A stretch of 64,000 bases of DNA from Bacteroidota bacterium (GTDB lineage Bacteria > Bacteroidota > Rhodothermia > Rhodothermales > UBA10348). A program made the position numbers and the translations under genes. The stretch covers positions 1 to 64,000 of the forward strand of contig JAJCYR010000021.1 of NCBI GenBank assembly GCA_029262775.1. The letters are read 5' to 3'. The notes under the pieces were generated by a model. The model searched no databases and had not been told where the DNA came from. It saw nothing but the letters and a program-made list of their open reading frames with translations. This document shows positions 19,690 through 23,790 of this stretch, piece after piece (within the stretch, counting starts at the first letter, position 1; every line of letters begins with the position of its first letter).

Positions 19690-19878
19690 TCAGTGATCCG
19701 GCATTACGAATGCCAGGATGACATAAAGGATGAGGCCGGGAAAACCCGTTGACAGGATACTCAAAAGTATCCAGGCCACGCGGACAGTGGTCGAATCAAT
19801 GTCGAAGTATTCGGCCAAGCCGCCGCAGACACCGGCGATTTTGCGGTCGTGCGTGGATTTGATGAGTTTCCTGCTCAT
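19690..19878 (-). CDS. Small PspC domain protein
   Basis: The 62-aa protein is essentially a single PspC domain: KLIKSTHDRKIAGVCGGLAEYFDIDSTTVRVAW followed by a membrane helix ILLSILSTGFPGLILYVILAFVM. PspC proteins sit in the inner membrane and act in envelope stress responses with PspA or PspB in proteobacteria. No PspA gene is seen here. It follows a larger PspC paralog by five bases, so the pair is probably cotranscribed. It converges on the M16-like gene. Confidence 0.88.
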   Translation of the reverse strand: MSRKLIKSTHDRKIAGVCGGLAEYFDIDSTTVRVAWILLSILSTGFPGLILYVILAFVMPDH

Positions 19879-19883
19879 AATGT

Positions 19884-20546
19884 TCAGCTGTCTCGTATGA
19901 TGGTGATGCGTTCTTCCCGACTGGGGCGGACCGGGTCATCGGCCGACGGCATGACGAAGGCCAGCACGATGTAGGCGAGCAGTAGCGGACCTCCCCCGGA
20001 AACGACGGTTCCAACGACGAGGGCAATGCGCACGAGCGTTGAATCGACCCCGAAATAGTCTGCGATTCCGCCCGCGACCCCGGCAATTTTCTTATCACGA
20101 CTTTTGGTCAGCCGTTTCTTCCGGCTTGAAGTGATGGATTCCTTCGCACGCCGGGCTTCAGACGAGGCCAGCTTTTTCTCGGCTTTTCTACGTGCGCGTT
20201 TCCGGCCGGGGCGCCAGGACAATACGCCAAAACCGGTCAGAACAATGAGCAGACCGGCAAGCCAGGGCAGCATTCCGGCCAGTACGGTCAGATCCACTCC
20301 GCTGCCCCAAAGCCCGATCTGCTGGAAGATGAAGGCGATGCCTACCAGAATGACGGACATGCCGGCCAGCGTGGGCAGGTTCAACGAGGACGACCCTTCT
20401 TCGGGCTCCTCCTCGAACAGCATGACCTCGAGGTCCTCGTTCGAGAGCGCATCGAGGTCGGGATAGGCGTCGTACACGTCTCGTTGCGCGCGGTGCGGCG
20501 CGTCAATGGGTGATCGGAACGGTCTTTCGGATGTGCTCATGCTCAT
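19884..20546 (-). CDS. PspC domain protein with acidic N-terminus and extra membrane helices
   Basis: The 220-aa protein has an acidic N-terminal cytoplasmic segment (NEDLEVMLFEEEPEEG), two predicted membrane helices (about residues 60-105), a basic linker (RKRARRKAEKKLASSE) and a C-terminal PspC domain (KSRDKKIAGVAGGIADYFGV) with its own helix. The PspC module is paralogous to the small protein downstream, which suggests tandem duplication. The N-terminal helices resemble LiaF/DUF5668-type membrane modules; this is a loose resemblance. A role in sensing membrane stress is plausible from family knowledge only. Confidence 0.82.
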   Translation of the reverse strand: MSMSTSERPFRSPIDAPHRAQRDVYDAYPDLDALSNEDLEVMLFEEEPEEGSSSLNLPTLAGMSVILVGIAFIFQQIGLWGSGVDLTVLAGMLPWLAGLLIVLTGFGVLSWRPGRKRARRKAEKKLASSEARRAKESITSSRKKRLTKSRDKKIAGVAGGIADYFGVDSTLVRIALVVGTVVSGGGPLLLAYIVLAFVMPSADDPVRPSREERITIIRDS

Positions 20547-20577
20547 ACTGACGGACTACGAACAGGTGGAGGATAGG

Positions 20578-21135
20578 TTACGTGGATATTATGACATGCC
20601 TGATGGGTACGTCGTGTGCTTCGTTCGGGAGTGCCTCCACAAAACCGCTACCGAATATCGGACATATGGTTTCTGCATGCACGCCCGGGAGCCACCTGTC
20701 GTAGTACCCGCCCCCATAACCCAGCCGAAACCCCTGGCGGTCAACGGCCAGCGCCGGTACAATGACGACGTCCGGTATATCCGCGTGAAAAAGGGTCGAT
20801 GCGACGGGTTCCAGCATGCCCATGGGCGCGGCGTGCAGGGAGTCTGGACCCGTGTACCGGCCGGCCCCGAGCCCACTACCGACCACAACGGGCAGCCATA
20901 CGCGTCGGCCTTCTGCCACCCACGCGTCAATCAGGGGCTGCAGGTTCGGCTCGCGCAGGAGCGTCATGGGCCAAAAGACGTGAATGTCCGACGCCATGGC
21001 CACGACCGGGTGCCTGGTGAGGCGCTCGCAGAGAACGGAACTTTCGCGCTCCCAATCGGCTTCAGTCATGCTGCGCCGCGCGTCTCGGAATTTCTGCCGA
21101 AGCACGTCTTTTTTTACCGAAGAATCTGTAGTCAT
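20578..21135 (-). CDS. 5-formyltetrahydrofolate cyclo-ligase
   Basis: The protein is 185 aa from ATG 21135 (MTTDSSVKKDVLRQKFRDARRSM); the longer track version runs into the divergent neighbour. It converts 5-formyl-THF to 5,10-methenyl-THF with ATP. The signature LGYGGGYYDRWL near the C-terminus and VIVPALAVDRQGFR define the 5-FTHF cyclo-ligase fold (YgfA family). Its ATG shares two bases with the ATG of the plus-strand AhpD-like gene (CATG at 21133-21136). The two genes therefore have no intergenic space, and their promoters must lie in each other's coding region. Confidence 0.9.
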   Translation of the reverse strand: MTTDSSVKKDVLRQKFRDARRSMTEADWERESSVLCERLTRHPVVAMASDIHVFWPMTLLREPNLQPLIDAWVAEGRRVWLPVVVGSGLGAGRYTGPDSLHAAPMGMLEPVASTLFHADIPDVVIVPALAVDRQGFRLGYGGGYYDRWLPGVHAETICPIFGSGFVEALPNEAHDVPIRHVIIST

Positions 21136-21514
21136 GCCGAACCGATTGGACGAATTCGAAGCGTATCGAGAAAAAATGAACGCCCGTATCCTGTCAAAAG
21201 ATACGCACCTGGGCATTCGCCGCTTCTTCAATCTGGATACGAACGCCTATGCCGAAGGCGCCCTCCCCAGTGCGACGAAGCAGTTGCTGGGACTGGTCGC
21301 ATCGATGGTACTCCGGTGCAACGACTGCATTGACTACCACGTCCTCGAGTGCATTGAATCTGGTTTTACCGATGCGGAACTCGACGAGGCGTTCAACACC
21401 GCCCTCGTTGTGGGGGGATCGATTGTGATTCCGCATCTGCGTCATGCGGTGGAGACGCGCGACCTGGCGCGCAGCCGCAGGTCGGGCCCTACGCGTGAAG
21501 ATGACAATAAATAG
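21134..21514 (+). CDS. Carboxymuconolactone decarboxylase/AhpD-like protein
   Basis: The protein is 126 aa from ATG 21134 (MPNRLDEFEAYREKMNARIL); an ATG at 21176 is an alternative. The AhpD redox motif C-x2-C-x3-H is present as CNDCIDYH (C62, C65, H69). It is followed by GFTDAELDEAFNTALVVGGSIVIPH, typical of the all-helical CMD fold. Members act as alkylhydroperoxidases or small disulfide reductases; the partner is unknown. Its N-terminal block is well formed, which supports the start that overlaps the divergent cyclo-ligase ATG. It lies upstream of ffh on the same strand. Confidence 0.82.
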   Translation: MPNRLDEFEAYREKMNARILSKDTHLGIRRFFNLDTNAYAEGALPSATKQLLGLVASMVLRCNDCIDYHVLECIESGFTDAELDEAFNTALVVGGSIVIPHLRHAVETRDLARSRRSGPTREDDNK

Positions 21515-21595
21515 GGTCAAAGTGGGTAAGGAAACTGTTTTCTTTGTATTTTGTCCAGTCTGCGCCGTTTTTGGCGAGAACCACGATTCCTGAAC

Positions 21596-22948
21596 ATGTT
21601 CGACAATCTTTCAGAAAAGTTGGAGGGTGCGCTCAAGTCCATTGCTGGACAGGGGCGGATCACGGAGCTGAATATCGCGTCCACGATGCGCGAAATTCGG
21701 CGCGCTTTGCTGGATGCTGATGTCAATTTCCAGGTAGCGAAGGATTTCACGGATCGGGTCAGGGAAAAAGCGCTCGGCTCGGACGTGCTCACGTCCGTAT
21801 CGCCGGGGCAGCAGCTCGTCAAGATTGTCTATGACGAACTGGTCCATTTCCTGGGTGGTGAACAGCAGGATATCCATCTTGCCTCGCGCCCGCCGACCGT
21901 GATTCTTGTTGCTGGCCTCCAGGGATCGGGGAAAACCACGTTTTCCGGCAAACTTGCGAAGTACTTCAAAAGTCAGGGGCGCAGTCCCATGTTGGTTGCG
22001 GCTGACGTTTACCGTCCGGCAGCCGTGGATCAGCTGAGAATGCTCTCTGAACAGATCGGAGTGCCCGTATTCACGCTGGAAGAAGGAGGTCAGGTCGTTC
22101 AGGATCCCGTCCGAATAGCCCGCGAAGCCGTTTCCGAGGCGCGCAAGCAGGTACGCGACATGGTGATCATCGATACGGCAGGACGCCTTCACGTTGACCA
22201 GCGCATGATGGCCGAGGTGTCGGACATCCGCGCTGCCGTTGAGCCCGATGAAATCCTGTTCGTGGTCGACGCCATGACAGGGCAGGATGCGGTCAATACG
22301 GCTGTCGAATTCAACCGGCAGCTGAATTTTGACGGCGTCGTTCTGACGAAGCTTGATGGCGACACGCGCGGAGGGGCTGCTCTTTCCATTCGCCGCGTCG
22401 TCGACAAACCCATCAAATTCGCCTCTACAGGTGAAAAACTCGATGCCCTTACGCCGTTCTACCCGGAACGGATGGCGCAGCGTATTCTGGGAATGGGGGA
22501 CGTGGTCAGTTTCGTCGAGAAAGCCCAGGAGCAAATCGACGAAAAACAGGCAGAGAAGCTCCAGGGACGCATTCGGTCGGAATCATTCGACCTCAATGAT
22601 TTCCTGGACCAGCTTGGGCGCCTCAAGAAAATGGGCTCGCTGACCGACCTTGTGGGCATGATGCCCGGCGTCGGCAGCAAACTCAAGGACGTGGATATTG
22701 ACGACGACGCGTTTGTACATGTCGAAGCCATCATCCAGTCCATGACGGAGGAAGAGCGCAGCGACCCGGATCTGATCAACGGTAGCCGCCGCCGACGCAT
22801 TGCGCGGGGAAGTGGCGTTGAAGTCCGGGATGTGAACCAACTCCTGAAACAGTTTCGGGACATGAAAAAGATGATGAAGACCATGACCAAAATGATGGGC
22901 AAGGGCCGCTCGCTCGACCTGTCAAACCTCATGGGCCGCATCAACTGA
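21596..22948 (+). CDS. ffh: Signal recognition particle GTPase Ffh
   Basis: The protein is 450 aa from ATG 21596 ([19 protein letters not shown]). The N domain is followed by the G domain with [15 protein letters not shown] (G1, about residue 105), DTAGRLHVD (G3) and [14 protein letters not shown] (G4). The methionine-rich M domain binds 4.5S RNA and signal sequences ([18 protein letters not shown]). It targets inner-membrane proteins co-translationally through FtsY. It heads the ribosomal cluster ffh-rpsP-rimM-trmD-rplS, the same order as in E. coli. A TATTTTG box lies at 21547-21553. Confidence 0.97.
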
Positions 22949-22974: not shown

Positions 22975-23790
22975 GTGGCAGTTAAACTTCGATTGAAACG
23001 CATGGGTCGGCGCAAGCGCCCGGTCTATGCCATTGTTGCAACGGACGCACGTCATCCGCGCGACGGACGGTACATTGAAGATCTGGGTCGATACGCCCCG
23101 CTCAACGAACCCGCCACCGTCTCCGTGGCCGCCGATCGCGTCCACTACTGGCTGGACAACGGCGCCCAGCCGTCCGATACGGTCCGCTCGCTGCTCAAGA
23201 AGCAGGGCGTCCTTCTGGCATACAGCATGCAGAAGAACGGCGCATCGGAAGACGCTATCAGGGAGGCGGTCGAGGCCCACGTGGCGCGGCATGCATCCAA
23301 GTCATCCCAGGCGGCCAAGCTCACGCCGACCGAGCGCCGTGCCGCGGCTCTGAAGGCGGAAGAGGAGGTGGCCAAGGCGAAGGAAGCCGAACTGGCGAAG
23401 AAACGGGCCGAAGAGGAGGCTGTCGCCAAAAAGGCTGCCGACGAGGCGCGCAGGAAAGCCGAAGAGGAGCGCGCCGTTGCGGCCGCCGAAGCCAAGGCCG
23501 AACAGGAGGCTGCCAACAAGGCGCAGGCCGATGCGGAGAAGGCACCAGTCGCTGCCGCGGAGCCGAAGGCAGAAGCTGCCGCGGAGCCGAAGGCCGAAGC
23601 TGCCGCCGAGCCGAAGGCCGAAGCTGCCGCCGAGCCGAAGGCCGAAGCTGCCGCCGAGCCGAAGGCCGAAGCTGCCGCCGAGCCGAAAGTCGAAGCTGCC
23701 GCCGAGCCGAAAGCCGAAGCTGCCGCCGAGCCGAAAGCCGAAGCTGCCGCCGAGCCGAAGGCCAACGAGGACAAGGAAAAGTCCGCCTGA
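22975..23790 (+). CDS. rpsP: 30S ribosomal protein S16 with long repetitive C-terminal tail
   Basis: The protein is 271 aa with a GTG start (reads MAVKLRLKRMGRRKRPVYAIV). The first 80 residues or so are canonical S16 (GRYIEDLGRYAPLNE). The remaining 190 residues are a charged Ala/Glu/Lys region, probably a long helix or coiled coil, ending in nine near-identical octapeptides of type AAAEPKAE. S16 is usually about 80-90 aa. C-terminal extensions are known in Bacteroidota, but this one more than triples the length. It lies 26 bases after ffh and 24 before rimM. Confidence 0.95.
   Translation: MAVKLRLKRMGRRKRPVYAIVATDARHPRDGRYIEDLGRYAPLNEPATVSVAADRVHYWLDNGAQPSDTVRSLLKKQGVLLAYSMQKNGASEDAIREAVEAHVARHASKSSQAAKLTPTERRAAALKAEEEVAKAKEAELAKKRAEEEAVAKKAADEARRKAEEERAVAAAEAKAEQEAANKAQADAEKAPVAAAEPKAEAAAEPKAEAAAEPKAEAAAEPKAEAAAEPKAEAAAEPKVEAAAEPKAEAAAEPKAEAAAEPKANEDKEKSA
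23551..23766 (+). repeat. Nine tandem 24-bp units in rpsP
   Basis: Nine units of consensus GCTGCCGCCGAGCCGAAGGCCGAA run without gaps, each encoding AAAEPKAE-type octapeptides. One unit has Val for Ala, and the last ends in AAC. The near identity at third codon positions shows recent expansion by slippage or unequal recombination, so unit number may vary between strains. Confidence 0.97.

Follow-up and report, generated by a model that had tools for sequence, protein, structure and literature searches.

Two divergently oriented genes of a Rhodothermales genome, fcl and cmd, begin within one palindromic CATG, and we consider it highly likely that this sharing of start codons represents a real head-to-head (divergent) gene overlap of minimal size, mediated by the palindrome, between two separate transcription units. 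In the window, by which we mean the whole stretch of 64,000 nucleotides that was analysed, positions 21130-21139 read AGTCATGCCG; the ATG of cmd occupies 21134-21136 on the plus strand and the ATG of fcl occupies 21135-21133 on the minus strand. The first-pass annotation had described the two ATG codons as overlapping in one CATG, and a direct read of the letters together with both open reading frames confirmed this; the genes themselves share two nucleotides (the A and the T at 21134-21135), not four bases. It follows from the letters that CATG is the sole geometry in which ATG codons on opposite strands can share bases. What characterizes a divergent 5' gene overlap was found at this site: the genes are adjacent on opposite strands with overlapping starts, both genes and both starts are supported, and the arrangement is kept in relatives. 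The features discussed below are collected in Table 1.

Table 1. Positions of the shared start site, the two overlapping genes and the surrounding features in the window
Feature	Position	Strand	Basis
Palindromic CATG containing both start codons	21133-21136		Direct read; kept in 4/4 sampled genomes of the genus
fcl, 5-formyltetrahydrofolate cyclo-ligase, 185 aa, start ATG 21135	20578-21135	minus	PF01812, E 6e-35; TIGR02727
cmd, AhpD-like / carboxymuconolactone decarboxylase (CMD) family, 126 aa, start ATG 21134	21134-21514	plus	PF02627, E 3e-14
ffh (SRP GTPase), next after cmd	21596-22948	plus	Open reading frame; 73-98% identical and at the same site in most relatives
PspC-domain-like gene (named by sequence resemblance), downstream of fcl	19884-20546	minus	Open reading frame; usual neighbour in relatives
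cmd-ffh spacer, 81 nt, with conserved AT-rich promoter-like block	21515-21595	plus	GTTTTCTTTGTATTTTRTCCAGTCTRCGCC kept in three genomes of the genus
Putative fcl promoter/leader region, first ~22 cmd codons	21137-21200	minus	Geometry; raised synonymous conservation of cmd codons 4-20
Putative cmd promoter/leader region, first ~22 fcl codons	21070-21132	plus	Geometry only

Support for both genes and both starts

The fcl product passed the curated cut-off of TIGR02727 (138.2 bits against a cut-off of 84.9, over residues 9-183), and the cmd product scored 53.4 bits against PF02627 (cut-off 23). The translation of cmd carries the CxxC...H active-site motif in the form CNDCIDYH, and the solved structures PDB 1vke/1p8c resemble it with an E value of about 1e-31. 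No relatives of the cyclo-ligase were found in a scan of viral contigs.

It had been suggested that one of the two starts may be wrong and, in particular, that the AhpD-like protein might begin at ATG 21176; the comparison with orthologues gave no support to either suggestion. ATG 21176 encodes M15, which lies inside the conserved N-terminus of cmd: across 92 loci, drawn from Rhodothermales and also from other phyla (chiefly Chloroflexi), L5, Y11, M15 and N16 are invariant or nearly so, and L5, Y11 and other conserved residues thus precede M15. R4, F8 and R12 served as alignment anchors, and therefore their invariance is partly by construction. Over cmd codons 4-14 (93 loci), conservation was 0.67, 0.75 and 0.33 at codon positions 1, 2 and 3, respectively; that is, the first two positions are conserved and the third is not. 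In one congeneric genome (G001), a stop codon in the cmd frame precedes the ATG by 12 nt, so that no other start lies before R4, and in another genome (G002) there is no other start between the cmd ATG and a stop at -69. In fcl, every one of 44 orthologues retains K9, R13 and R20; this invariance excludes the inner starts GTG 21105 and ATG 21069, since an inner start would remove K9 and R13. The outer fcl starts are at non-conserved positions (an ATG at +82 in the window's genome and at +55 in relatives). When aligned with their orthologues, both N-termini support the annotated starts, through L5 and Y11 in cmd and through K9, R13 and R20 in fcl.

Our own gene caller, which uses codon usage alone and is conservative about starts, selected inner starts for both genes, at 21069 for fcl and at 21176 for cmd; in both genes the GC content is 0.40-0.44 over codons 1-16 versus 0.59-0.64 in the remainder. 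A mis-called start, with cmd beginning at ATG 21176 or fcl at GTG 21105 or ATG 21069 and a normal spacer between them, would agree with the choice of the caller and with the AT-rich character of the shared region, but each inner start has conserved residues ahead of it, and the overlap amounts to 2 nt, with no long extension to be accounted for; we regard such an error as exceedingly unlikely. The preference of the caller shows that the base composition of the shared region is unusual. Composition is no proof of starts, and the conservation that supports the annotated starts overrides it. The fcl-cmd pair illustrates that composition-based start trimming by gene callers can misplace both ends of such an arrangement.

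Distribution, recurrence and rarity of the shared CATG

The CATG, with both ATGs in frame, is present in each of the four genomes sampled from the window's genus, although their fcl sequences are only 47-71% identical to that of the window. Since the same CATG is retained in frame for both genes in every one of them, the arrangement appears to exceed what chance would produce. A close homologue of cmd was found in 52 of the 114 genomes of the order Rhodothermales, which is placed in Rhodothermota or in Bacteroidota depending on the authority. The two genes fcl and cmd are divergent neighbours at each of the 44 distinct Rhodothermales loci where both were detected; fcl is usually followed by a PspC-like gene, and cmd often by ffh. 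When each start was taken as the closest ATG beyond the conserved core, nine loci had a start-to-start gap of exactly -2, corresponding to the CATG: four are from the window's genus, four from one genus of another family (L024, L119, L123 and L124), and the ninth is that of Roseithermus sacchariphilus (L019/L072, CP030158). At L013, L020 and L066, a CATG would be usable if an alternative start were taken; the remaining loci have spacers of +7 to +321 nt and no other real overlap. A gap of -150 at L132 was discarded as an artefact of a cmd match without the N-terminus, and internal TAG stops in four cmd matches were found to be ordinary C-terminal stop codons (three of the four were read at that point).

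On an unrooted tree of the fcl and cmd proteins, the CATG state, under the strict label, needs three changes by parsimony; the well-supported branches of this tree force at least two changes, and placement of the nine CATG loci in a single clade was rejected (AU p = 0.0008). Judged from these protein sequences, the CATG at fcl-cmd seems to have arisen at least twice, and probably three times. It is also conceivable that the CATG was ancestral in Rhodothermales and was lost in most lineages by the insertion of a spacer, rather than being gained repeatedly; this reading concerns the origin alone and is otherwise compatible with a minimal overlap. With alternative starts counted, a CATG is present or possible at 12 of 42 loci, which favors an ancestral state, but spacers are present on most branches, which makes repeated gain the shorter account (three changes under the strict label, on a tree that, being unrooted, gives no direction), and we consider an ancestral CATG unlikely.

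Repeated gain of the CATG could proceed through the palindrome itself. An ATG preceded by C already presents an ATG on the opposite strand, and C precedes 35 of the 91 nearest cmd ATGs. Shrinkage of the spacer, or extension of the 5' end of fcl by a few codons, could bring both starts into a CATG, in which the ready-made opposite ATG would be the closest start open to the neighbour that does not intrude on the other protein. The core promoter and the ribosome entry site of each gene would then be accommodated within the first ~20 codons of its partner, in DNA that is AT-rich and where the encoded amino acids still leave room for them. Because the palindrome supplies the second ATG, the recurrence of the CATG can be explained without a special function, and we infer that the overlap has no special regulatory function.

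In 737 kb from three related genomes (G000, G032 and G002), our own conservative caller predicted 69 divergent pairs, and no pair among them had overlapping starts. A looser count, in which any in-frame CATG between divergent open reading frames was accepted, gave 9, 1 and 1 sites in the three samples (11 in total, with several per pair), and a possible CATG alone is thus not rare; the CATG of fcl-cmd is distinguished by its homology support. Divergent overlaps are the rarest orientation, making up 1% of well-characterised overlaps (457 of 42,055 in 338 genomes; PMC2478687), and they are under-represented probably because upstream regulatory sequence is needed (PMC2174442). Our literature searches found no dedicated description of the exact CATG arrangement. 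The fcl-cmd site is a fresh, well-supported instance of a known rare arrangement, in which the genome is compacted in a simple though uncommon way.

As in the short divergent (5'-to-5') overlaps of prokaryotes, fcl and cmd are opposite-strand neighbours that overlap at their 5' ends; their overlap differs in that it is the smallest possible, falling exactly within CATG, in that homology rather than annotation stands behind it, and in that it recurs in separate lineages. In the same-strand start-stop overlaps of the ATGA/TGATG type, neighbours likewise share start codon bases (PMC10666635), but those overlaps couple translation on one mRNA, whereas fcl and cmd are on different mRNAs and no translational coupling is possible. 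The fcl-cmd CATG offers a homology-supported and recurrent case of the tightest possible packing of divergent genes.

Promoters, leaders and the possibility of mutual control

The earlier proposal that each promoter lies within the other gene is a consequence of the geometry, and there is no plausible cotranscribed neighbour upstream of cmd on the plus strand or of fcl on the minus strand; from this geometry we infer the promoter positions given in Table 1. No conserved promoter-like motif was seen in 21070-21132 on the plus strand, and a sigma-70 and terminator scan of 20200-22100 gave no sigma-70-type promoter, although the promoter type of this order may differ. The Bacteroidota motif TAnnTTTG, which also may not be the promoter type of the order, occurs 8 times in the window against 8.5 expected, with no occurrence near fcl and cmd. 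A TTGACA in the cmd codons (21197-21192, minus strand) is not taken as an fcl promoter: it has no good -10 element, and it is kept in three of four genomes and absent in the fourth.

The geometry differs from that of bidirectional (pseudo-symmetrical) bacterial promoters, which share with it compact divergent transcription in which RNA polymerases may compete (PMC12825309). Such promoters have symmetrical -10/-35 elements and closely spaced divergent TSSs, so that a single pseudo-symmetrical sequence drives transcription both ways, whereas each promoter of fcl-cmd would lie beyond the start of the other gene, inside the coding sequence of its neighbour. The natural series of fcl-cmd gaps, from -2 to +321 nt, could be exploited for testing promoters embedded in a neighbour's coding sequence. 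The first-pass annotation had also stated that the transcripts are antisense over their 5' ends; this would hold only if the mRNAs carry leaders, and with leaderless mRNAs the overlap would be just 2 nt.

Mutual antisense control of fcl and cmd is possible; an excludon-like antisense pair would have long leaders that overlap and opposite expression of the two genes. In such a device, initiation or transcription of one gene would interfere with that of the other, whether RNA polymerases compete or collide or the 5' leaders pair as antisense RNAs, thereby linking folate recycling to a peroxidase-like protein. The constancy of the divergent pair (44/44 loci) and the recurrence of the exact CATG in separate lineages are in keeping with this idea, but most relatives keep a spacer between the two genes, and those with 20-320 nt show that the pair can do without the overlap; the mutual control that had been proposed is unsupported.

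Synonymous sites at the 5' end of cmd bear on the same question. In the window's genus, synonymous conservation of cmd codons 4-20 is 0.70 versus 0.47-0.52 (permutation p 0.004), and three genera or genus groups that have spacers showed no such rise, a contrast that would favor a regulatory device. However, the rise in the second CATG genus is weak (p 0.19; one member is partly misaligned by an indel) and is clear in one group with a spacer (f9, p 0.04); Rhodothermus, which also has a spacer, shows a slight rise. Low synonymous divergence at 5' ends is, moreover, common and may be mutational (PMC12725619). Given that 5' ends are often synonymously conserved for other reasons, the signal at codons 4-20 is a hint only, and we treat the synonymous-site result as suggestive. 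In the bidirectional promoters of E. coli, competition appears only under strong activation of one direction (PMC12825309). Taken together, we judge a regulatory device to be very unlikely. The stronger proposal that selection has repeatedly brought fcl-cmd to the CATG, with embedded promoters making the two transcripts mutually limiting and so forming a switch between folate recycling and the peroxidase-like protein, would be highly improbable.

Neighbouring genes

The promoter-like block in the cmd-ffh spacer is probably the own promoter of ffh or of the ffh-rpsP-rimM-trmD-rplS cluster. With ffh probably having its own promoter, the CATG overlap need not control the downstream ribosomal-protein operon.

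Proteins from Anaerolineae (Chloroflexota) are 66-77% identical to cmd (L037-L064), and neither an fcl nor an ffh homologue was found next to the cmd genes of Anaerolineae; the likeness of cmd to proteins encoded without these neighbours suggests lateral transfer between phyla. On the other side of the pair, fcl is followed on its own (minus) strand by a tandem of two PspC-like genes (19690-20546), and this tandem next to fcl recurs across Rhodothermales. Finally, rpsP (ribosomal protein S16, 22975-23790) encodes a long C-terminal tail, an unusual repeat tail for a ribosomal protein, which is coded at 23551-23763 by approximately nine copies of a 24-bp repeat that are 96% alike, with the unit AAEPKAEA.
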